A DNA stretch of 12,981 bases from an uncultured Methylococcaceae bacterium (lineage in GTDB: Bacteria; Pseudomonadota; Gammaproteobacteria; Methylococcales; Methylomonadaceae). The stretch spans positions 1-12,981 of the forward strand of contig CAJAHC010000216.1 in NCBI GenBank assembly GCA_903939355.1. The letters run 5' to 3'. This document shows positions 1-9,450 of this stretch, piece after piece. Position numbers and translations under genes: made by a program. A model generated the notes under the pieces. That model was given only the letters and a program-made list of their open reading frames with translations. It did not search any database and was not told the origin of the DNA. Every line of letters begins with the position of its first letter. Within the stretch, counting starts at the first letter, position 1.

Positions 1-358
1 TGATTATGATAGGCGTTGATATAAGCTGTGCTTCTTGATTCTCAGGTACAGGTGCTTGTATTTTCCAGACTATAGCGCCTGTTTCACTATCTAGAGCTGC
101 AATTTGTCCATTAGACGCAGGAACAATAACTAAAGGTTTACCTTGTGATAAATCTATGAGAGGAGAGGCAATAATGCTTGAGTCGAAAGTAATTGAAGGA
201 TTTACTTCGTTGGGAAATAAGCTTCTTAGCATGTGGCGTTCTGTACGAATTAATTCAAAACCATATAGGTTGATAGAATTTACCAGTAAAATATTTCCTA
301 TCAAGACAATGACAAATGAAAAATAACGCCGACTCAATTTACTACTAATTTTATTCAA
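1..358 (-). CDS. Membrane-anchored PQQ-type beta-propeller protein, N-terminal part (runs off the left edge)
   Basis: About 119 codons are visible and remain open to the window edge. The N-terminus is a short basic stretch (KISSKLSRRY) followed by a hydrophobic segment at about residues 13-32, consistent with an uncleaved membrane anchor or signal peptide. The sequence then reads IASPLIDL, GQIAALDSETGAIVWKI, which is the typical strand pattern of PQQ-type or BamB-type beta-propeller repeats (ALD..TG...W). The TTG at 356-358 is chosen because a TAA lies two codons upstream in frame and the next ATG (230-232) would remove the membrane segment; a weak GAG lies 6 bases upstream. A Pho box promoter sits just upstream (394-427), so expression on phosphate starvation is likely. 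Whether it binds PQQ as a dehydrogenase or is a structural propeller cannot be told from this part. Confidence 0.6.
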   Translation of the reverse strand, partial: MNKISSKLSRRYFSFVIVLIGNILLVNSINLYGFELIRTERHMLRSLFPNEVNPSITFDSSIIASPLIDLSQGKPLVIVPASNGQIAALDSETGAIVWKIQAPVPENQEAQLISTPIII

Positions 359-393
359 GCATTACTCATTAAGCTGAAGAAAAATGAAGTAAT

Positions 394-427
394 ATTTTAT
401 AGAATTGTTATGACAGAATTGTGAAAG
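394..427 (-). promoter_or_regulatory. Pho box and -10 of the beta-propeller gene
   Basis: Read on the minus strand, CTTTCAC (427-421), AATT, CTGTCAT (416-410) is a two-half-site PhoB box; the second half-site matches the CTGTCAT consensus perfectly and the first at 5 of 7. Exactly 10 bases further is TAAAAT (399-394), a 5 of 6 match to the -10 hexamer. This is the usual PhoB-dependent arrangement, in which the box replaces the -35. Transcription would start near 387, leaving about 29 bases of leader before the TTG start. Confidence 0.7.
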
Positions 428-461
428 ATGAACACAGCTCGGTTTAATAACTTGGCTTTTA

Positions 462-495
462 GAGTCACCTAGATGAAATTTAGTGTAGGTGACTC
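462..495. terminator. Inverted repeat between phoH and the beta-propeller promoter, possible terminator
   Basis: Perfect 10-base arms GAGTCACCTA (462-471) and TAGGTGACTC (486-495) are separated by a 14-base loop. The repeat lies about 40 bases past the phoH stop codon and just upstream of the next Pho box. That position suits a barrier to read-through from phoH, but no T-run follows on either strand, so it is not a textbook intrinsic terminator. An operator or mRNA 3'-end stabiliser is the alternative. Confidence 0.45.
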
Positions 496-533
496 CTATT
501 AAAAATAAGAAGCCTAAAGTTATCTAATAACAA

Positions 534-1286
534 TTAAGTTGAATAAGCGCTAAGAATATCTTTGACAATGCCAGAGCGCACCACATCTTCTACAGTAAAC
601 TCAACGATACCGACTTTTCTTGTATTTTTTAGTTTATTAACGGCATCAGAAAGCCCTGATTGAGTTGTTATATCTTTCTGTTCAATGTCACCATCGATAA
701 TGACTTTACAATTATCACCAATTCGGGTTAAAAATAATTTCATTTGGCCTGGTGTTGTATTTTGTGCCTCATCTAAGATAGCCCAGCAATTTTTGAAGGT
801 CCGTCCACGCATAAAAGCCAGAGGCATGGCACAGATTCTTTTATGTTTAATCAAATAGTCTACTTGTGAACGACCTAATCGCTCATTAAAAATATCTCTA
901 AAAGGTTCAATATAGGGGGCATATTTCTCTTCCAATTCGCCAGGAATGAAACCAAATTTCTCCCCCGCCTCAACGCCAGGTCTGGTAAGCAAAATACGGT
1001 CAATCTTCTTTTCTCTTAGCATATCTGCTGCTAATCCAGCAACAACATAACTTTTACCGGTTCCAGCAGGCCCTATGCCAAACGTTATGACATTCTCCAA
1101 AATGGCCGTTATGTAAGCACCCTGGGCTTTTGTAAGTGCTTGGATGGGCTCTGATACTCTTCTTTCTATGCATAAGTCAACGACGTCGAGCAAAGAAAAG
1201 TCATCATTCTTACTGGTTTTTCGACTGTCTCTTCTGCGATATATAATGTCTTTATCAGAGGGTTTTATGGCTGTTTTTCTCGACAT
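534..1286 (-). CDS. phoH: PhoH family P-loop ATPase
   Basis: This 250-residue protein is a PhoH-domain NTPase, a family related to the helicase core and thought to act on RNA in the cytosol. The Walker A motif GPAGTGKS is at residues 72-79 and the Walker B motif AILDEAQN at 169-176. Between them lies the conserved LTRPGVEAGEKFGFIPG block (about 100-116), and the IIDGD motif follows at 196-200. The first 45 residues are basic and not part of the domain. The length is that of compact PhoH proteins; there is no N-terminal PIN domain and no extended C-terminus. The ATG is supported by AGGAG at 1294-1298 with a 7-base spacer. It sits between two genes with clear Pho boxes, yet its own upstream region has no convincing one, so phosphate control of this copy is not shown. 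Confidence 0.93.
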   Translation of the reverse strand: MSRKTAIKPSDKDIIYRRRDSRKTSKNDDFSLLDVVDLCIERRVSEPIQALTKAQGAYITAILENVITFGIGPAGTGKSYVVAGLAADMLREKKIDRILLTRPGVEAGEKFGFIPGELEEKYAPYIEPFRDIFNERLGRSQVDYLIKHKRICAMPLAFMRGRTFKNCWAILDEAQNTTPGQMKLFLTRIGDNCKVIIDGDIEQKDITTQSGLSDAVNKLKNTRKVGIVEFTVEDVVRSGIVKDILSAYST

Positions 1287-1388
1287 ACATTCACTCCTAA
1301 ATTGATTCGGTTAATAATCGGGTAAGACTTTGTTAGCATTTTGAGTTTAGAGCTGAAGCTATATTTGCTGTTTTATTGACACCTCATG

Positions 1389-2996
1389 TTAAATTTTATT
1401 TATAGTTGGGTTAATTATTTGTGTAAAAAGACTATCACCTCTAACATCTTTCAGCGTAACAGTCATCTTAAGAGTGTCACTATCAATATCGACTTGTCCA
1501 AAAAACTGTAATCCTGACAAAGGCGATAAATTTGAATTGGGCGATGCTTTTTGAAAAATCAATTGGGGGCCAAATGTATTATCGAATTGCTGAGGCCCAA
1601 AACTGCTGGCATTCAAAGGGCCTGAAATAAACTCCCAAAAAGGATCAAAGTTATTAAACTTGGCTTTGTTAGGATCATAATAGTGAGCAGCACAATAATG
1701 TACATCCGCTGTAAACCAGACCATATTTGTAATTTTTTCTTGTTTCGCAAAAGCCAATAATTCTGCAACTTCAAGTTCTCGCCCTAAAGCAGGGCCGTCT
1801 CCATTAGCTAGATTTTCAAATTGAGTACGATTATTTTGGTCCAGTCCATCTTTTAAACTCAAACCAATTGGCATATCTGCAGCAATAACTTTCCATACAG
1901 CAGTTGATTTTTTTAAACTGCTTTTTAACCAATTTAATTGATCATGTCCAAGATATGAAGTATCAACACCTGATTTTTCCTGCCGATTATGATTATTGGG
2001 TCCACGGTAGGAGCGCATATCCAGAATAAATAATTCCAGTAAAGGACCGTAAGGCAAGTTACGATAAATAGATCTTTCCCCTGTTGTTTTGTTATAACGA
2101 ATAGGTGCATATTCGAGTGCTGCAGTCGTTCCCCTTTTTACTAGCGTAGTAATGTTTTTTTCCGTATAGCGCACATCATCTTCTAGATTTTTAGAAGGAG
2201 ACCAATTATTGGTAATCTCATGATCATCCCATAACCAAACAGTTGGCACTTGGGCATTAAATTTACGTAAGTTATGGTCCATTAAATTATATTTATAACG
2301 ACCACGATACTCTTCAAGTGTTTCAGCAACCTTAGCGACTTCTTCTGTCACAATATTGCGCCAAACTTGACCCGTTTCATGGACTATTTGGGTTTCATAT
2401 ATTGGACAATCAGCGTAAATACTGTCGCCACAATGAATAAAGAAATCGGGGTCAGTTAGTCGCATAGTTTCATAAATTTTCATGCCGCCTATATCTGGGT
2501 TAATCCCCCATCCTTGACCGCAGGAATCTCCAGACCAAAGAAAGCGAATAGGTCTTGCGTCGTTTGGTGCTGTTCGAAAATGACCTGAACTTACTTTGCT
2601 TATACGCCGTTTATTATTTAAATCTTGAAACATAACCTCAATAAAAACATCTCGACCAGCAGGTAATCCAGTTATATCAATGTGAGCGGTATAGTCATTT
2701 TCTTTGAGGGCGTGTGGTCCTTGTATTAAGATTGAATCTTTGAAATCGGGATATAAACTATATTTGACAACCATTTTAGCGGAGCAGTTTGCCCGACTCC
2801 AGACGATAGCTCGATCTGATAGCACATCGCCAACACGAATACCCTGGGCTAACTGGGGAAGGTCTAATAGTGATGTCGAAGAGAAGGATGCTGCAATACT
2901 ATTGATGGTGTTTTCTGATGAAATAAAACTGGTAGTGAATGCAAAACCAGTAGTTTTGATGAAATTGCGACGAGATTGTTGATGTTGATTCAACAT
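1389..2996 (-). CDS. phoD: PhoD-family alkaline phosphatase / phosphodiesterase, Tat-exported
   Basis: PhoD enzymes hydrolyse phosphomonoesters and diesters outside the cytoplasm, usually with iron and calcium. I place the start at the ATG at 2994-2996 (535 residues). The longer frame opens at 3032, but its ATG overlaps the -10 of the Pho promoter and cannot be in that transcript. From the chosen start the protein begins with a twin-arginine signal, SRRNFIK at residues 8-14, then a hydrophobic stretch. In this numbering the family motifs are SGDSCGQGWG (from 155), HCGDSIYAD (188-196, metal-binding Asp), WLWDDHEITNNW (255-266) and WFTADVHY (427-434, metal ligands). An N-terminal beta domain (about 50-140) precedes the catalytic domain, as in other PhoD proteins. 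It is transcribed away from plcP from a 290-base divergent region in which each side has its own Pho box. Confidence 0.93.
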   Translation of the reverse strand: MLNQHQQSRRNFIKTTGFAFTTSFISSENTINSIAASFSSTSLLDLPQLAQGIRVGDVLSDRAIVWSRANCSAKMVVKYSLYPDFKDSILIQGPHALKENDYTAHIDITGLPAGRDVFIEVMFQDLNNKRRISKVSSGHFRTAPNDARPIRFLWSGDSCGQGWGINPDIGGMKIYETMRLTDPDFFIHCGDSIYADCPIYETQIVHETGQVWRNIVTEEVAKVAETLEEYRGRYKYNLMDHNLRKFNAQVPTVWLWDDHEITNNWSPSKNLEDDVRYTEKNITTLVKRGTTAALEYAPIRYNKTTGERSIYRNLPYGPLLELFILDMRSYRGPNNHNRQEKSGVDTSYLGHDQLNWLKSSLKKSTAVWKVIAADMPIGLSLKDGLDQNNRTQFENLANGDGPALGRELEVAELLAFAKQEKITNMVWFTADVHYCAAHYYDPNKAKFNNFDPFWEFISGPLNASSFGPQQFDNTFGPQLIFQKASPNSNLSPLSGLQFFGQVDIDSDTLKMTVTLKDVRGDSLFTQIINPTINKI

Positions 2997-3030
2997 AATA
3001 TCAAGCTCTGAAATGTACAAATCAAGCTTC

Positions 3031-3064
3031 ATTATTCAATCATCTTGTGACAGGGTTATGACGG
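3031..3064 (-). promoter_or_regulatory. Pho box and -10 of phoD
   Basis: On the minus strand CCGTCAT (3064-3058), AACC, CTGTCAC (3053-3047) matches the PhoB box at nearly every position. Ten bases later comes AATAAT (3036-3031), 5 of 6 to the -10 consensus. The predicted transcription start, near 3024, lies downstream of the ATG at 3030-3032 and upstream of the ATG at 2994-2996, so this site decides the phoD start codon. Confidence 0.8.
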
Positions 3065-3167
3065 TTTAAATAAAAATTAACAAGATATTAATTTATAATT
3101 TTTTAGTACTAGGCGCTATTCAATTTTTACTTAATTGCACATCATGGTAATCACATTATTTGTTAGC

Positions 3168-3201
3168 TTGTCACAAAACTTTCATTTACATTTGGTAGTA
3201 T
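3168..3201 (+). promoter_or_regulatory. Pho box and -10 of plcP
   Basis: TTGTCAC (3168-3174), AAAA, CTTTCAT (3179-3185) forms a PhoB box with 5 of 7 and 6 of 7 half-site matches and the A-rich spacer of the consensus. TAGTAT (3196-3201) follows after exactly 10 bases as a 4 of 6 -10 element. The start of transcription would be near 3208, giving a leader of about 79 bases. Confidence 0.65.
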
Positions 3202-3286
3202 TTCTTATTGAAATTCTTTCTTGGATACGCTTATTCCTAGACTGAGTATTCCCTCTGTCCTATCAGCCTTTCGGGATTAGTTATTG

Positions 3287-4078
3287 ATGAATAATACCTA
3301 TAGAACCATTTGGATTTCTGATTTACACCTCGGATCTACGCAATGCCAAGCTGACGTTTTGCTTGATTTTTTAAAGCATAACGATAGTGAGAAACTTTAT
3401 TTAGTGGGCGATATTATCGATTTTTGGGCGCTTTCCAAGAAAATATATTGGCCTATTGATCATAATACTGTGATCCAAAAAGTCTTACGTAAAGCTAGGC
3501 ATGGTACCCATGTTATTTATATACCAGGAAACCATGATGAAAATGTCAGGCAATACGCTGATTATGTGTTTGGTGACATTGTAGTTAAAACTTCAGATAT
3601 ACACATTTCAGCTTCCGGAAAAAAGTTCTTGGTCATTCATGGTGATGAATATGACACGATTGCCAAATATCATAAGTGGATTGCTAAGCTAGGCAATGAG
3701 GGTTATGACTTTCTTATTTGGATCAATCATATTTTACGGAAAATCAGGTTTTTGATTGGAATGCAATCTAACTTCTCCTTGTCTGCTTATGTGAAATATA
3801 AAGTTAAGAATGTAGTACAGTTTATTTCCGATTATGAGGAAAGTATCGTTAGTACTCTTAAAGATCGCGAACTGGATGGTGTTATCTGTGGCCATATACA
3901 CCACGCTGAAATTAAAGATATGAATGGGTTTTTATATATCAATACTGGCGATTTTGTGGAAAGTTGCACTGCAATAGTAGAGCATTTCAATGGCGCTTTG
4001 GAGCTAGTAACTTGGCAACAGAAAGACTTGCCTTTAGTTTCCAAAGAAAATCCGGATGTTGATATTACTACCACTTAA
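3287..4078 (+). CDS. plcP: PlcP-like phospholipase C (calcineurin-fold metallophosphoesterase)
   Basis: PlcP is a cytosolic phospholipase C that, on phosphate starvation, cuts membrane phospholipids such as PE and PC to diacylglycerol and a phosphorylated headgroup. The metal-binding motifs of the calcineurin-like fold are all present (263 residues from this ATG): DLHLG at 12-16, VGDIID at 40-45, GNHDE at 81-85, HGDE at 118-121 and GHIHH at 202-206. Blocks such as LRKARHGTHVIYIPGNHD, KVKNVVQFI and INTGDFVESCTA resemble rhizobial PlcP more than LpxH, which is the main alternative. There is no signal peptide. The start is either TTG 3284 or ATG 3287; GGGA at 3273-3276 would serve both. The Pho box upstream independently supports the PlcP call. 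lplT follows after 99 bases with no convincing terminator, so the two may be co-transcribed. Confidence 0.85.
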   Translation: MNNTYRTIWISDLHLGSTQCQADVLLDFLKHNDSEKLYLVGDIIDFWALSKKIYWPIDHNTVIQKVLRKARHGTHVIYIPGNHDENVRQYADYVFGDIVVKTSDIHISASGKKFLVIHGDEYDTIAKYHKWIAKLGNEGYDFLIWINHILRKIRFLIGMQSNFSLSAYVKYKVKNVVQFISDYEESIVSTLKDRELDGVICGHIHHAEIKDMNGFLYINTGDFVESCTAIVEHFNGALELVTWQQKDLPLVSKENPDVDITTT

Positions 4079-4177
4079 AGAAACAGAGTCTACCTTGAGT
4101 AGATAATTAAAAAACACGCCCTCTTTTTTAGCGTAAAGATTTAGCTTTCTGCATAATTGCACAGGACAAATTAACCT

Positions 4178-5419
4178 ATGAATCGTAGTTTCAATATTAT
4201 TCTAGCTGCACAGTTTTTTTCATCACTGGCAGATAATGTACTTCTGTTTGCGGCTATTGCACTATTAAAACACATGGATGCTCCTGCTTGGGAAATTCCA
4301 GTGTTACATCAATTTTTCGTTTTCGCTTTTATCGTGTTGGCTCCTTTTGTTGGTGCATTATCCGACGCAATGCCAAAAGGACGGGTCATGTTTATTAGTA
4401 ATAGTATCAAGATGATTGGTTGTATTACTCTGTTATTTGGCATCCATCCATTGTTCGCCTATGGATTTGTCGGTATTGGAGCGGCTTTGTATTCACCTGC
4501 AAAATATGGCATTTTGACTGAGTGTCTTCCACCTCAAAGATTAGTATGGGCAAATGGGTGGATGGAAGGATTAACGGTTGCAGCTATTATTTTAGGCGCT
4601 ATATTTGGTGGATTATTGATTGGTCATCGAGTTGAGGTGCAAGTCGTCCAACAACTTGGTGGTCTTGAATTTAATGGTGGTATTGATACCGCGCCTGAGT
4701 TTGCAGTTATTATTACTCTTGGGCTTTATTTAGTGGCAGCCATTCTTAATTATTTCATCCCCAAACTGCCAATTGAACATGTATTAAGGAAGCGAACACC
4801 AGTGTTCTTGTTATTAGATTTTTGGCGAAGTTTTTTGCTGCTATGGAGAGATCCATTAGGGCAGGTATCTCTAGCAGTTACTTCCTTATTTTGGGGTGCG
4901 GGAACTAGTCTGCGGTTCATTGTTCTTGCTTGGGCTGCTTTAGCTTTAAAGCTCGATCTTGAGCAGTCAACACAATTGACAGCTCTAGTTGCAGTTGGTC
5001 TTGCCATTGGTTCAGTGATAGCTGCAAAAGCAGTGCCCTTGGAACATGCTCTCAAGGTATTACCTTTGGGAATAGCTATGGGATTCGTTGTAGTAGCAAT
5101 GGCAATAGTTACTGATTGGATAGTGGCAATGTTCTTGTTGGTACTGATTGGTAGTTTGGCTGGAAGCTTTTTGATACCAATGAATGCATTACTACAGCAC
5201 CGAGGCCATAAACTCATGGGTTCTGGGCATTCCATTGCAGTACAAAACTTCAATGAAAATCTTAGTATCTTATTAATGCTCGGCGCATATGCGCTGATGA
5301 TTGATGCTGGACTTTCAATATATACCATTGTGATTGTGTTTGGACTATTTTTGTCGGTAACAATGGCTTGGCTCACCAGTAAACATGGTCGTGATAATAA
5401 AAAAAATAAGAGCAGTTAG
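4178..5419 (+). CDS. lplT: Lysophospholipid transporter LplT (MFS)
   Basis: LplT flips lysophospholipids, chiefly lyso-PE and lysophosphatidylglycerol, across the inner membrane for re-acylation. The 413-residue protein has the pattern of about 12 hydrophobic segments expected of the major facilitator fold. It carries blocks recognisable from enterobacterial LplT: AQFFSSLADNVLLFAAIALLK near the N-terminus, APFVGALSDA, KGRVMFISN, YSPAKYGILTE, SLFWGAGTSLRF and PMNALLQHRGHK. The loop around residues 150-172 is longer than in E. coli. In enterobacteria lplT is followed by the acyltransferase gene aas; here no aas is adjacent and the next genes are an OlsB/OlsA pair. AGGA lies 11 bases before the ATG, a poorly spaced ribosome site. 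No Pho box of its own was seen, so read-through from the plcP promoter is the simplest source of phosphate control. Confidence 0.9.
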   Translation: MNRSFNIILAAQFFSSLADNVLLFAAIALLKHMDAPAWEIPVLHQFFVFAFIVLAPFVGALSDAMPKGRVMFISNSIKMIGCITLLFGIHPLFAYGFVGIGAALYSPAKYGILTECLPPQRLVWANGWMEGLTVAAIILGAIFGGLLIGHRVEVQVVQQLGGLEFNGGIDTAPEFAVIITLGLYLVAAILNYFIPKLPIEHVLRKRTPVFLLLDFWRSFLLLWRDPLGQVSLAVTSLFWGAGTSLRFIVLAWAALALKLDLEQSTQLTALVAVGLAIGSVIAAKAVPLEHALKVLPLGIAMGFVVVAMAIVTDWIVAMFLLVLIGSLAGSFLIPMNALLQHRGHKLMGSGHSIAVQNFNENLSILLMLGAYALMIDAGLSIYTIVIVFGLFLSVTMAWLTSKHGRDNKKNKSS

Positions 5420-5494
5420 CTGTAAATTTAGATTTTTATTCACCAAATAGTCAACAGTTGTAGAAAATTAAGTTAAAGAATGATGTGAATGATC

Positions 5495-5531
5495 TCCATA
5501 TTTTATCAAAATAGATTTGATAAAATATGGA
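5495..5531. repeat. Perfect 16-base inverted repeat (hairpin) after lplT
   Basis: Arms at 5495-5510 and 5516-5531 pair perfectly over 16 bases around a 5-base loop, ATAGA (core CCATATTTTATCAAA). It starts 76 bases after the lplT stop codon. There is no T-run on either side and the stem is AT-rich, so it is an atypical terminator; mRNA 3'-end protection, a protein-binding palindrome or a MITE-like remnant are alternatives. Confidence 0.7.
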
Positions 5532-5622
5532 TTCATAATCAACAAGTTAATTATTGTTCAATACAGACACTATCTATATTATTCATGGTTTGCCTATCTC
5601 CCTGCCTTATTAAGGCTACTCC

Positions 5623-5700
5623 CTAAAAGAGCACCTCACCATTTTCATTACGTATGTGATAAGCACATTTCTGGCATCTTTTGACCCAAAAGATCTTCAT
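5623..5700 (-). CDS. Possible small protein of 25 residues (uncertain)
   Basis: A minus-strand frame begins at ATG 5698-5700, with AGGA about 6 bases upstream, and ends at TAG 5623-5625. The product begins MKIFWVKRCQKCAYHI, including a CxxC pair. I recognise no family. The length is within what chance allows, and the only support is the ribosome-site spacing and the paired cysteines. It could also be the remnant of a longer gene. Confidence 0.15.
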   Translation of the reverse strand: MKIFWVKRCQKCAYHIRNENGEVLF

Positions 5701-5860
5701 ATTTGTCCTAAGCAAAACGGGTAGCACCGAAACTTAAAAAATTTATGTAGAGATTTATATCGCTGTATCTCAAAGTTAATAATTTTACTAACTAATTTAA
5801 ATTAAGGTTCGTAGGTCGATTTGCACTAATTGATAATGAGCATACATAGAGCATTAGTAA

Positions 5861-5949
5861 CTGTTATCAATGTGTCATCAAAATTTAACTATTCTGTCAT
5901 TTTATAGTCATCAATTGGACATGAAACTGACATGTTTGTTGATTATCGT
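5861..5949 (+). promoter_or_regulatory. Tandem Pho box array and -10 of the olsB-olsA operon
   Basis: Six PhoB half-sites lie on an exact 11-base grid: CTGTTAT (5861), GTGTCAT (5872), a skipped unit (5883), CTGTCAT (5894), TAGTCAT (5905), TGGACAT (5916) and CTGACAT (5927). They pair into three boxes with 4-base spacers. The third (5894) is a perfect half-site; TGGACAT is the weakest at 4 of 7. TATCGT (5944-5949), a 4 of 6 -10 element, begins 10 bases after the last half-site. Multiple boxes in phase are known from strongly PhoB-dependent promoters. Confidence 0.8.
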
Positions 5950-5982
5950 ATGACAATCTTTTGCTAAATTACGTGGTTGCCA

Positions 5983-6774
5983 ATGAAAAATAAGTATCCC
6001 GAAACCTTTATAAAAGCTCCTAAAAAACTAGATTGTTTTATTACAACTTCAGAGGAATTGATAAAAGAAGCTCAAGTATTACGTTACCGTGTTTTTGCAC
6101 AGGAAATGGGTGCCGATCTTAAAACAAAATCTGAAGGCTTAGATTATGATGATGTCGACAGCTATTGTGAACACTTGATTGTTTATGATAATTGTAATAA
6201 AAAAATTGTTGGCTATACCCGTTTACTCAATCAATATCAGGCAAAACTGTTGGGACGATTTTATTCACAAAATGAGTTTAATCTAACTGAAGTCCTAGCA
6301 ATGCCTGGTCGCTTTTTGGAAATTGGTAGAACGTGTGTGGATCCTGATTACCTTGGTAGCGCTGTGTTAACAACGCTGTGGTCTGCTTTGGTGCAATACG
6401 CAGTAGAAGGTGGGTATAATTATTTACTTGGCTGTGCCAGCATCTCTCCTGGGCCTAGCGGGTATGCTGTTGAGGCGGTTTATCGAAACATTGATGCTAA
6501 AAACATTGCTCCAGCTTCTTATAAAGTCAAACCCAGCATTTCCGTTCCCGACTCATTAAGATGTCAACGTGATGAATCAGGTATTCCGCCTTTGTTAAAG
6601 GCTTATTTACGGTTCGGTGCGCTGGTTTGTGGAGAACCCTATTGGGATGAAGATTTTAATTGTATGGATTTATTTATATTATTGCCGTTGGATCAGTTAA
6701 AAGATCGTTACAGTAAACATTATATGAGAGGTCATCAGGCGACTAATGAAATTGAAACTGCCGCTATTGTATAA
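5983..6774 (+). CDS. olsB: OlsB-like 3-hydroxyacyl-ACP:amino acid N-acyltransferase
   Basis: OlsB is a GNAT-fold enzyme that transfers a 3-hydroxyacyl chain from acyl carrier protein to the alpha-amino group of ornithine, giving lyso-ornithine lipid, the first step of phosphorus-free aminolipid synthesis. The 263-residue protein has the family signatures: AQVLRYRVFAQEMGAD (residues 30-45), DDVDSYCEHLIVYD (56-69), GYTRLL (77-82), FLEIGRTCVDPDYLG (111-125) and LLGCASISPGP (148-158). The ATG at 5983 is preferred to an in-frame TTG at 5977 because GTGG at 5973-5976 has a 6-base spacer to it. It heads a run of same-strand genes behind the Pho box array, and its end overlaps olsA by 29 bases. Relatives can use glycine, glutamine, lysine or other amino acids, so the exact substrate is not certain. 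Confidence 0.87.
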   Translation: MKNKYPETFIKAPKKLDCFITTSEELIKEAQVLRYRVFAQEMGADLKTKSEGLDYDDVDSYCEHLIVYDNCNKKIVGYTRLLNQYQAKLLGRFYSQNEFNLTEVLAMPGRFLEIGRTCVDPDYLGSAVLTTLWSALVQYAVEGGYNYLLGCASISPGPSGYAVEAVYRNIDAKNIAPASYKVKPSISVPDSLRCQRDESGIPPLLKAYLRFGALVCGEPYWDEDFNCMDLFILLPLDQLKDRYSKHYMRGHQATNEIETAAIV

Positions 6775-7537
6775 ATTTTTTTGCATTATTTGCCTGTTTT
6801 TCTATGGATTGATCATTGCTGGAATTGTTTTTCCAGTACTTCATTTCATCTGTTCGGCAAACAAAGCTAAAAGCAAACGAGATAGATTAAAAATTCATTG
6901 GCTAAAAGTATTTAGTTCTATCATGAAGTTAAGTGTTATTAGAGAAGGTGAGTTGCCCAAAGACGGTGCACTTTTGATAAGTAATCACATTTCTTGGTTA
7001 GACATTATTGTAATAGGGCAATATTTACCCGTTTATTTTGTTGCTAAGAGTGATATTTCTAGTTGGCCTATCATTGGTTATTTATCCAGACAAGGAGGAA
7101 CTATTTTCATTCGGCGAGGGAATAAAAAATCCATTAAAGCGACTACTGAAAAAATGATTTGGGTATTAAAACAAAACAGTAATATTGTTGCCTTTCCTGA
7201 AGGCACAACGACCTCAGGAAATGAAGTGCTGAGCTTTCATGCTTCTTTATTTCAACCCGCACTATTAACCAAATCAGTTATTCAACCGGTGGTTATTCAA
7301 TATGACGGTGCAGCCAAACATCAAGCCCCTTTTATTGGAGAAGATGATTTTGTTCGACATTTAATAAAGATGCTGTGTTTGGATAAAGTTGAGGTGCGTT
7401 TAAGTTTTTTGCCGGTAATTAAAAGCTTAGGCAAAGATCGTCATACTGTCTGTGCAGAAGCAAGAGAAAAGATATATGAAAAAATTTCTGAATCTTCACC
7501 GGTCAATAAAATAGAATCTAACTATCTCACATATTGA
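6746..7537 (+). CDS. olsA: OlsA/PlsC-like 1-acyl-glycerol-3-phosphate or lyso-ornithine-lipid O-acyltransferase
   Basis: A membrane acyltransferase of the PlsC family. The 263-residue protein has an N-terminal hydrophobic segment (about residues 9-36), the catalytic HX4D motif HISWLD at 81-86, the GGTIFIRRG block at 118-125 and the FPEGTT motif at 150-155, which contacts the acceptor phosphate or equivalent. Because the gene overlaps olsB by 29 bases in another frame, it is most likely translationally coupled to it. The product is then expected to esterify a second acyl chain onto the hydroxyl of lyso-ornithine lipid. On sequence alone it cannot be separated from an ordinary lysophosphatidate acyltransferase, and some OlsA enzymes do both. 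Regulation would follow the Pho array upstream of olsB. Confidence 0.85.
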   Translation: MKLKLPLLYKFFCIICLFFYGLIIAGIVFPVLHFICSANKAKSKRDRLKIHWLKVFSSIMKLSVIREGELPKDGALLISNHISWLDIIVIGQYLPVYFVAKSDISSWPIIGYLSRQGGTIFIRRGNKKSIKATTEKMIWVLKQNSNIVAFPEGTTTSGNEVLSFHASLFQPALLTKSVIQPVVIQYDGAAKHQAPFIGEDDFVRHLIKMLCLDKVEVRLSFLPVIKSLGKDRHTVCAEAREKIYEKISESSPVNKIESNYLTY

Positions 7538-7585
7538 TATTAATTTGAGCCTTCGTGTTGATCGTGATAAAAGGGAATTCAATAA

Positions 7586-8641
7586 TTGCCTAGTATTCAC
7601 CATGATCATAACTTTATTACTTATATGACTAGCATTAAATTCTCTGAACTGGAACAGCTGGAACGCATTATTGAGGGATTTGGAGAACGTGCTCAAACTG
7701 AAGTGATAGAGCGAATTGAATACAAAAACCACCAATTTCCTATTTACAGCATTACACTAGGTTCAACTCAGATTGATGCGCCAGTATTAGCTTTTTTTGG
7801 TGGTGTCCATGGACTGGAAAAGATTGGATCTGAAGTCATTCTTTCTTATATGCAAACCATCAGTCAGTTGCTTGACTGGGATGAGGAATTTCAGAGTCGT
7901 CTTGAAAGATCACGTCTTGTATTTGTTCCTATCGTTAATCCAGTGGGCGTCTATCTTGGTACACGTTGCAATGGCAATGGTGTTGATCTCATGCGCAATT
8001 CGCCTGTGGAAGGTGTAGGTGCTACCAGCATATACAGTGGCCATCGAATTTCTCCTCATTTACCTTGGTATAGAGGGGATGAAGCCAAAATGGAAAAGGA
8101 AGCGAAAGCTTTATGCCGTGTTGTCGATCAATATCTATTCAACGCGCCTTTATCTATCGCATTGGATTTACATTCTGGATTTGGCATTCAAGATCGTTTG
8201 TGGTTTCCCTATGCCTCACGGAAATCACCTATTAATTGTATTGCCGAAATATTCGCTTTGAAAGAGCTGTTTGATCGATGTTATCAGCACCATATTTATA
8301 AAATAGAGCCAACTTGTCAAGAATATATGATAAACGGTGACTTATGGGATTATTTATTCGATGATTTTATTAAACGCTTTCAAACAGAGCGATTATTTCT
8401 TCCACTGACATTGGAAATGGGTTCATGGCTTTGGCTTCGTAAGAGTCCAATGCATCTATTCTCAAGACATGGATTATTCCATCCGCTCTTGCCGCATCGC
8501 CAGCAACGAATTTTTCGCCGGCATTTCATGCTCTTTGATTTCTTGCATAGAAGTCTTTTATATCCGGAAAAATGGACGCAGCTCAAGCCGGAACAGAAAA
8601 TAGACTATAAACAAAAAGCCTTAGGTTTGTGGTATGAATAA
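7586..8641 (+). CDS. M14-type zinc carboxypeptidase / deacylase-like protein (DUF2817-like)
   Basis: The 351-residue protein has the zinc site of the M14 metallopeptidase superfamily: HGLE at residues 75-78 (HxxE), the substrate block VNPVG...RCNGNGVDLMRN (118-138), the third ligand His196 in ALDLHSGFG, and a likely catalytic Glu277 in LTLEMGSW. It has no signal peptide, so it is probably cytosolic. Relatives include peptidases and deacylases acting on N-acyl amino acids; the substrate is unknown. The frame opens at a TTG (7586) with AAGGGA at 7571-7576 and a 9-base spacer, while the first ATG (7625) has no ribosome site, so TTG is preferred. It lies 48 bases after olsA with no terminator between, and overlaps the next gene by 8 bases, which suggests one transcript with olsB-olsA. 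Confidence 0.8.
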   Translation: MPSIHHDHNFITYMTSIKFSELEQLERIIEGFGERAQTEVIERIEYKNHQFPIYSITLGSTQIDAPVLAFFGGVHGLEKIGSEVILSYMQTISQLLDWDEEFQSRLERSRLVFVPIVNPVGVYLGTRCNGNGVDLMRNSPVEGVGATSIYSGHRISPHLPWYRGDEAKMEKEAKALCRVVDQYLFNAPLSIALDLHSGFGIQDRLWFPYASRKSPINCIAEIFALKELFDRCYQHHIYKIEPTCQEYMINGDLWDYLFDDFIKRFQTERLFLPLTLEMGSWLWLRKSPMHLFSRHGLFHPLLPHRQQRIFRRHFMLFDFLHRSLLYPEKWTQLKPEQKIDYKQKALGLWYE

Positions 8642-9425
8642 AGATCTAGGACAAAACTGGATTCTACTGAGGGGGTTAGCCAGAGAATCAGAACACTGGG
8701 GGGCTTTCATTCCACTTTTACAGTCGACATTTCCAGAATCTAAAATAACCACGCTAGATTTAGCGGGCACGGGTTGTTTTTATCAGGATACCAGTCCAAA
8801 TACCATTAAAGAGATAACAAGTCAGTTGCGTCAGCATGCCTTCGATAATGGTTTAATACAACAACCGATAACTATTTTAGCGCTTTCACTTGGGGGGATG
8901 GTTGCTTGGGAATGGATGAGGCGTTATCCGGAAGATATTAGCGGTGGAATCCTCATTAATACTAGCTTTGCTGATTTAAGTCCCTTTTACCATAGGTTAC
9001 GTTGGCAAAATTATAAAGAGCTTTTATGGTTGATTATGGCGACTAACATTCGCACAAGGGAAGCAAGAATTTTGCAGCTAGTAAGTAACAGTTCAGATGG
9101 TAATAAAGAAATGGAACAAGTTTGGGAAAATATTCAAAATGCACGTCCCATTAGTTTTAAAAATTGCTGGCGGCAGATAAAAGCAGCAGCAACCTATCGA
9201 CCTGGTAATATTAAGCCAATTCAATCAGTTTTTTTATTAAATAGTTTAGGTGATCGTCTGGTAGCGCCTATCTGCTCAGAGGCAATAAGCAAAAAATGGA
9301 GTTTTGAAATCCAACTTCACCCTTGGGCAGGGCATGATCTCCCTTTAGATGATAGCGACTGGGTTGTTTCGCAACTTAAAATTTGGGTCAATAAAACAAG
9401 AATAAATGAGTCATTATTGGAGTAG
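8634..9425 (+). CDS. Alpha/beta hydrolase
   Basis: The 263-residue protein has the alpha/beta hydrolase layout. The oxyanion region is LLRGLARES (residues 11-19), the nucleophile elbow is ALSLGGM with Ser85, the acid is likely Asp207 in LNSLGDRLVAP, and the catalytic His is His234 in WAGHDLP. There is no signal peptide or clear membrane segment. The N-terminal RGLARESEHW pattern (lid-less, with a short cap at about 115-180) does not identify a substrate; esterase, thioesterase or lipase-like activity are all open. Its ATG overlaps the end of the M14-type gene by 8 bases, so the two are translationally coupled. A probable terminator follows at once, which makes it the last gene of the olsB-headed run. 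Confidence 0.8.
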   Translation: MNKDLGQNWILLRGLARESEHWGAFIPLLQSTFPESKITTLDLAGTGCFYQDTSPNTIKEITSQLRQHAFDNGLIQQPITILALSLGGMVAWEWMRRYPEDISGGILINTSFADLSPFYHRLRWQNYKELLWLIMATNIRTREARILQLVSNSSDGNKEMEQVWENIQNARPISFKNCWRQIKAAATYRPGNIKPIQSVFLLNSLGDRLVAPICSEAISKKWSFEIQLHPWAGHDLPLDDSDWVVSQLKIWVNKTRINESLLE

Positions 9426-9450
9426 GTTACAATAAACCTGTCTCCTTCTT
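9419..9450 (+). terminator. Probable intrinsic terminator after the alpha/beta hydrolase
   Basis: The transcript can fold as GGAG, T, AGGTT, loop ACAATA, AACCT, GT, CTCC, a 9-pair stem with a small internal bulge, followed by TTCTT. The stem overlaps the last bases of the coding sequence. The T-run is short and interrupted, so strength is uncertain. It would close the olsB-olsA-M14-hydrolase unit. Confidence 0.5.

Follow-up and report, generated by a model that had tools for sequence, protein, structure and literature searches.

The window analysed here is a complete contig of 12,981 bp within the 3.05-Mb draft genome (96.9% complete, 5.02% contamination) of an uncultured Methylococcaceae bacterium, and it carries plcP, lplT and olsBA, genes of predicted phospholipid degradation, lysophospholipid transport and ornithine-lipid synthesis. 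The nearest database records to the window are from Methylococcales. In order, the minus strand encodes a beta-propeller gene cut by the contig end, phoH and phoD, and the plus strand encodes plcP, lplT, olsB, olsA, an M14 peptidase-like gene and an alpha/beta hydrolase gene, followed by glk and a DUF3422 gene. A sequence-only reading had placed phoD, plcP, lplT, olsB and olsA at 1389–7537 with Pho boxes upstream of phoD, plcP, olsB and a fourth gene. The coordinates and identities were borne out by open reading frames and by Pfam and NCBIfam profiles, and the boxes were recovered by scanning the window with the pattern YTGTCATNNNNYTGTCAY, the fourth gene being the beta-propeller gene. The features are listed below, with L003 denoting a related locus.

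2..358, minus strand: N-terminal part of a beta-propeller protein (PQQ-like; membrane-anchored or secreted), from its open reading frame and a full-length relative; putative Pho-regulon member.
410..427, minus strand: Pho box of the beta-propeller gene, 2 mismatches; L003 carries CTGTCACAATTTTGTCAT at the matching place.
534-1286, minus strand: phoH-like gene, adjoining phoD.
1389..3032, minus strand: phoD-like alkaline phosphatase/phosphodiesterase gene (PF09423 302 bits, PF16655 48 bits; PDB relative 2yeq).
3047..3064, minus strand: Pho box of phoD, CCGTCATAACCCTGTCAC, 1 mismatch.
3168..3185, plus strand: Pho box of plcP, TTGTCACAAAACTTTCAT, 2 mismatches; recurrent across the order.
3284..4078, plus strand: plcP, phospholipase C-type metallophosphoesterase of PlcP-type kinship; likely start ATG 3287.
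4178..5419, plus strand: lplT, lysophospholipid flippase family of the major facilitator superfamily (MFS); NF008397 552 bits.
5861..5878, plus strand: second, weaker Pho-box-like site of olsB, 2 mismatches; 3 at the matching place of L003.
5894..5911, plus strand: Pho box of olsB, CTGTCATTTTATAGTCAT, 1 mismatch; identical in L003 and in a second related locus, L002.
5977..6774, plus strand: olsB, ornithine N-acyltransferase (PF13444 105 bits; NF052555 147 bits, under the cut-off); likely start ATG 5983.
6746..7537, plus strand: olsA, lyso-ornithine-lipid O-acyltransferase (PF01553 90 bits; NF052553 117 bits, under the cut-off); 29-bp overlap with olsB.
7586..8641, plus strand: M14 metallocarboxypeptidase-like gene (PF00246, carboxypeptidase fold); homologues of 338 residues start at ATG 7625.
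8634..9425, plus strand: alpha/beta hydrolase gene (PF12697), overlapping the M14 gene.

The true start of phoD may be the ATG at 2996, and its product has a twin-arginine N-terminus as judged by eye. The M14 gene is probably a later part of the olsBA unit. AlphaFold models of middling confidence (75.9 and 71.0) served for fold class only.

The window PlcP is 46% identical to a Sinorhizobium meliloti protein and 47% identical to a protein encoded on a Pseudomonas aeruginosa plasmid, both of PlcP type, and the metal-binding motifs DxH, GDxxD, GNHD, H and GHxH are invariant across the five aligned PlcP rows. The Sinorhizobium gene adjoins LuxR regulator and acyl-homoserine lactone (AHL) synthase genes in a 3.7-Mb record labelled pSymB, and as this is the neighbourhood of SMc00171, the characterised PlcP, we take its product to be that protein. 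An MFS gene beside it was considered as a second plcP–lplT pair and rejected, being of the phenylpropionate type and without significant similarity to the window LplT. On the Pseudomonas plasmid, a glycosyltransferase gene lies next downstream. Database names of the window protein's relatives (UDP-2,3-diacylglucosamine diphosphatase) would make it an LpxH-type lipid A enzyme and the locus a site of envelope housekeeping, and the protein does match the LpxH model weakly (46 bits, below the cut-off of 190). This assignment is highly improbable, as the Sinorhizobium and Pseudomonas PlcP-type proteins to which the window protein is akin are equally weak with the same model (39 and 45 bits), and the plcP promoter carries a recurrent Pho box. 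LpxH itself was rejected as the identity of the window protein in view of the true LpxH of the genome, which scores 290 bits and is encoded on another contig.

Synthesis of the replacement lipid is represented by a GNAT-type OlsB adjoining a PlsC-type OlsA. The OlsB and OlsA models, whose names suggest a derivation from Brucella and Rhodobacter sequences, are the best NCBIfam matches of the two proteins, with scores below the equivalog cut-offs (147 versus 320–350 bits for OlsB and 117 versus 300 for OlsA). The overlapping olsB–olsA pair of Sinorhizobium directs ornithine-lipid synthesis; the window pair likewise overlaps and adds a Pho box, and it differs in being followed by the M14 metallocarboxypeptidase-like and alpha/beta hydrolase genes. 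Further olsB loci were drawn at even steps from the 102 genomes not yet read, and olsA follows olsB in 40 of these 40. The M14 and alpha/beta hydrolase genes stand together beside olsBA in the same 10 of the 40, and the products of 7586–9425 are possible ornithine-lipid turnover enzymes.

To place the gene row in context, neighbourhoods were surveyed across 251 Methylococcales genomes. plcP matched in 182, and from the matches listed 116 rows with identities of 67% or more and 34 rows of 45–52% were kept, plcP being split into a close and a distant clade. lplT matched in 97 genomes; 69 rows of at least 59% identity were kept, those of 50% or less were set aside as paralogues, and the contexts of 68 of the 69 were covered (all except G111). 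olsB matched in 119 genomes, with 118 rows kept and the partial rows of G034 and G237 dropped. Close-clade plcP and lplT lie within 5 kb of each other in 39 of the 58 genomes with both kept; plcP comes first on the same strand in all 39 pairs, which span 13 genera and two families (12 genera without a doubtful contig of G118). Distant-clade plcP and lplT are within 5 kb in none of 11 genomes. olsB is similarly close to plcP in 10/55 (close clade) and 12/24 (distant clade) genomes with both, and to lplT in 9/55. The G118 contig (C64, locus L002, MBQZ01000064.1), from “Crenothrix sp. D3”, carries a block 98% identical to that of the window; the genus label of G118 is unlike the window's, the genome holds a second, weaker PlcP match, and the contig is possibly misbinned.

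Among the 68 lplT loci, the neighbours are plcP (39), an MGDG-synthase-like glycosyltransferase (18; MGDG_synth 92 bits), olsA (10), olsB (9), alpha/beta hydrolase (9), M14 (8), an Agt-like glycosyltransferase (8), the beta-propeller gene (6) and phoD (5). The Agt-like protein shares 45% identity with the glycosyltransferase that accompanies PlcP on the Pseudomonas plasmid. In 53 of the 68 loci, lplT has one or more of plcP, olsBA, agt and ugtP as neighbours, which ties it to four kinds of lipid-remodelling gene, in some cases in the absence of plcP. The sequence-only reading had proposed a module, and the survey supports it in that plcP–lplT, plcP–olsBA, lplT–olsBA and lplT–glycosyltransferase links all recur in the order. 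The recurrent entity is the gene set with its Pho control rather than the exact order of the window, as the complete plcP–lplT–olsB–olsA row was seen in three loci only (G000, G135 and the contig of G118). In many relatives plcP–lplT is followed by a Nudix hydrolase gene (L005, L006, L015 and others; 19 of the 68 lplT loci). In relatives of a family designated f4 (L260, L263, L265), olsB–olsA–plcP–agt rows are found, or olsBA–agt divergent from plcP; plcP and olsBA are thus grouped in different arrangements.

The window LplT scores 552 bits against an NF008397 cut-off of 297 and is 40% identical to Escherichia coli LplT. Its gene starts 99 bp downstream of plcP, and a terminator scan found no terminator-like site between the two (scans with promoter and terminator consensus patterns did not exceed shuffled sequences in matches). 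Residues D30 and R236 are important in E. coli LplT; they are kept in 37/37 window-type rows and in 10/10 rows linked to aas, the gene of the lysophospholipid acyltransferase Aas. All 37 window-type rows also keep D74, K78, K89, K120, E126, E141 and E351, and the aas-linked rows keep every listed residue except E351; conserved residues therefore do not separate the two types. The sections considered of PMC11416262 describe LplT–Aas lysophospholipid remodelling in E. coli, where lplT and aas form a bicistronic operon. The window LplT belongs to the same family, whereas its gene stands downstream of plcP, and a separate contig carries the Aas-like gene. The aas operon or fusion, usual for LplT though not universal, was absent from the covered contexts, with aas beside 0 of the 68 window-type lplT genes (3–17 kb per locus); the same aas query finds aas in 14 of 14 control loci. 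A distinct LplT paralogue, 34–38% identical, instead follows aas in ten loci and forms its own clade (100/100) in a tree from which six rows were dropped, the matched range having crossed a stop, and in which E. coli LplT has a long branch. These ten loci were picked for that adjacency, so their share is not a frequency; four other aas loci (G000, G118, G106, G204) have no LplT beside aas. An Aas-like protein is found at E≤1e-40 in 223 of the 251 genomes and passes the curated cut-off in 3.

This separation from aas bears on the substrate. LplT might flip the replacement lipids, either complete or in lyso form (lyso-ornithine lipid, glycosyl-diacylglycerols), instead of salvaging lysophospholipids, a somewhat unlikely alternative that accords with the placement of aas beside the paralogue rather than beside window-type lplT. 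It accords too with lplT near olsBA without plcP in G149, G093, G029 and G067, beside the Agt-like glycosyltransferase without plcP in seven loci (six in the window's genus), and beside the MGDG-synthase-like glycosyltransferase without plcP in G085, G089 and G045. Set against it, all 37 window-type rows retain the nine E. coli LplT residues, and a profile search found the plcP-linked LplT as the only one of this genome, where an Aas-like protein is also present, so that this LplT probably serves Aas as well. Lysophospholipid return is the simplest mechanism, and sequence does not decide between it and replacement-lipid flipping.

Phosphate control was examined from Pho boxes and their regulator. 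The window holds 16 Pho-box-like sites at up to 3 mismatches versus 7.8 expected, a number reached in 3 of 200 shuffles. At up to 2 mismatches the genome has 123 sites and a reversed control pattern 90, so most of the 123 are background; six of them fall inside the window, which accounts for 0.43% of the assembled sequence (p about 2e-5 under a Poisson model with independent sites), one of the six being intragenic (145–162) and two sharing the olsB promoter. At up to 1 mismatch, 2 of the genome's 14 sites are within the window (p about 0.002). The sole perfect site of the genome lies ~100 bp upstream of pstS. The sequence-only reading had depended on a phoB gene, and one is present at 339 bits (cut-off 296), directly followed by a truncated open reading frame that is PhoR-like by eye. 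The genes with boxes thus carry the sequence marks of Pho-regulon membership, an upstream Pho box and phoB in the genome.

These promoters were compared across relatives with a strict matrix built from six generally known E. coli sites, with the spacer ignored, at a threshold set to the 95% shuffle level. We relied on this matrix rather than on a first one (60 of 71 plcP upstreams), which included three sites not certain to be from E. coli and was rejected as partly circular, one site being identical to the pstS site of this genome, one close to the window plcP site and one consensus-like. Upstream regions were scored for 71 of the 116 kept plcP rows, and 47 exceed the strict threshold versus 14 on the opposite strand (by genus, 12/18 versus 2/18). 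Pho boxes precede olsB in 33 of the 40 further loci versus 4 on the opposite strand, and in 11 of 14 distinct loci of an earlier set (14/17 rows); they precede phoD in 5/5 distinct loci (6/6 rows) and the beta-propeller gene in 7/8 (9/10 rows). The upstreams of ugtP and the nudix gene, both frequent downstream of lplT, have boxes in 0/17 and 0/18, as expected if both are read from the plcP promoter, and that of the M14 gene in 2/12 rows. No box precedes phoH in the window or L003 (0/3 rows), and PhoH was rejected as a member of the Pho set. The beta-propeller gene lies between phoD and plcP–lplT in G094, G140 and G144, and an Agt-like gene precedes plcP in G132; the plcP upstreams of these four are below the threshold of the looser matrix, and G094 and G140 pass the strict one.

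The uncharacterised beta-propeller family lies near phoD, plcP or olsBA in several relatives, with Pho boxes. The full-length relative (L003:1537-3312, minus strand) has 591 residues and passes no Pfam cut-off. There are 389 homologues at E≤1e-10, and organism names among the best 120 of these are Methylococcales or unresolved Gammaproteobacteria/Pseudomonadota. Its predicted structure resembles those of quinoprotein dehydrogenases and of BamB, with sequence identities of about 10%.

Parts of this picture have precedent. As set out in the sections considered of PMC9239053, Methylosinus trichosporium OB3b under phosphorus limitation makes a plcP–agt glycolipid and increases an ornithine lipid; every proteobacterial methanotroph has plcP and some have OlsB/A, and plcP neighbourhoods are variable among type Ia methanotrophs. 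The PlcP family, ornithine-lipid genes in the genome and the phosphate-starvation logic are shared with the window, which differs in having lplT and olsBA, and no agt, beside plcP. The main text of that paper has no mention of “lysophospholipid”, “transporter”, “MFS” or “Pho box”. For marine heterotrophs, the sections considered of PMC4796936 describe plcP clusters of types 1–6 with Pho boxes; these resemble the window in the Pho box on plcP and a replacement-lipid gene close by, whereas the neighbours named there are btaAB, agt and other glycosyltransferases, lplT and olsBA not being among them. In the open-licence PMC literature, a scope that most subscription papers fall outside, no paper was found joining plcP with LplT or “lysophospholipid transporter” with “ornithine lipid”, and in wider searches the LplT term was absent among the matches listed. 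The earlier statement that LplT is undescribed in such a module agrees with this literature, within which plcP, olsBA and Pho control match lipid remodelling as already described and the association with LplT appears unreported.

Together, the locus very probably encodes Pho-controlled membrane-lipid remodelling in this gammaproteobacterial methanotroph. PlcP, PhoD, OlsBA, LplT and Aas belong to families of established activity, and a mechanism can be proposed on that basis. At low phosphate, PhoB would act at the four Pho-box promoters. PhoD and the beta-propeller protein would work outside the cytoplasm, with PhoD freeing phosphate from esters, and PlcP on the cytoplasmic side would convert phospholipids to diacylglycerol and a phospho-headgroup. 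LplT, co-transcribed with plcP, would flip lysophospholipids inward from the periplasmic leaflet, and the Aas-like protein would re-acylate them, after which PlcP could take their phosphate. OlsB and OlsA would use acyl-acyl carrier protein to make phosphorus-free ornithine lipid, which would fill the membrane. We hold this explanation as a whole, PhoB-controlled remodelling with lysophospholipid return by LplT, to be probable; PhoB binding at the boxes and plcP–lplT co-transcription are predicted from sequence. For the return step taken by itself, in which the direction and substrate of LplT are presumed, the chances are about even. The sequence-only reading had described one regulated block combining degradation, lysolipid handling and replacement synthesis. 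Co-regulation is supported by the Pho boxes and the recurrent links, in at least four Pho-box-led units rather than one operon, and the gene identities agree with the three functions, of which lysolipid handling by LplT is one that we infer.

A number of observations weigh against this explanation. In the window, 557 bp separate lplT from olsB, and the complete row is as rare as noted above. The Aas-like protein reaches 759 bits against a curated Aas cut-off of 886. An MGDG-synthase-type sink for diacylglycerol was sought in this genome and rejected, no member of the MGDG-synthase family being found (Agt, of family GT4, was not searched there); this leaves ornithine lipid as the only replacement visible. 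On the regulatory side, 24 of the 71 plcP upstreams fall under the strict threshold, including that of G135, the closest full relative; in three of the 24, G132, G144 and G164, another gene that may carry the promoter precedes plcP. The opposite-strand control for plcP is above the 5% level, some divergent neighbours having boxes of their own, and the Agt-like gene, leader of some lplT pairs, has a box in 2 of 9 only. lplT's own upstream has one in 10/56 rows. The matrices behind these counts were put together from generally known sites, and Pho control is a prediction. Two further points suit a different account, in which LplT is a chance neighbour or ordinary Aas-linked housekeeping with no part in phosphate starvation: lplT has no plcP, olsBA, agt or ugtP neighbour in 15 of the 68 loci, and when unlinked it seldom has its own box (6/29). 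Several of the 15 are in family f4, in rows that by eye are sugar/lipopolysaccharide-like. In loci of this family (L079, L081, L085, L087, L089), lplT lies near genes that are NeuB-, KdsC- and aminotransferase-like by eye, and in L087 and L089 it also adjoins olsBA. The account without a part in phosphate starvation is quite unlikely in view of the 39 same-strand plcP–lplT pairs in 13 genera and of the links to three further classes of lipid gene, as two given genes would be expected to lie less than 5 kb apart by chance in ~0.25% of genomes of 4 Mb (a simple calculation rather than a formal test).

A broader reading is put forward tentatively: that a Methylococcales LplT subfamily, separate from the Aas-linked one and associated at the gene level with PlcP, OlsBA and the Agt-like and MGDG-synthase-like enzymes, may be the flippase arm of phosphate-starvation remodelling, carrying lyso-lipids or lipids free of phosphorus from one side of the inner membrane to the other. 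In the portions of the published work considered, bacterial lipid remodelling consists of enzymes that cut, glycosylate and acylate, and the transit of lipids across the membrane is left open; if the reading is true, LplT would be the transport step missing from those descriptions. A flippase gene tied to remodelling enzymes in 13 genera is a direct, testable candidate for that transit. From the Pho boxes one would also predict that ornithine-lipid synthesis is under phosphate control in many gammaproteobacterial methanotrophs, a point relevant to methane oxidation in waters poor in phosphorus and to the use of aminolipids as biomarkers.

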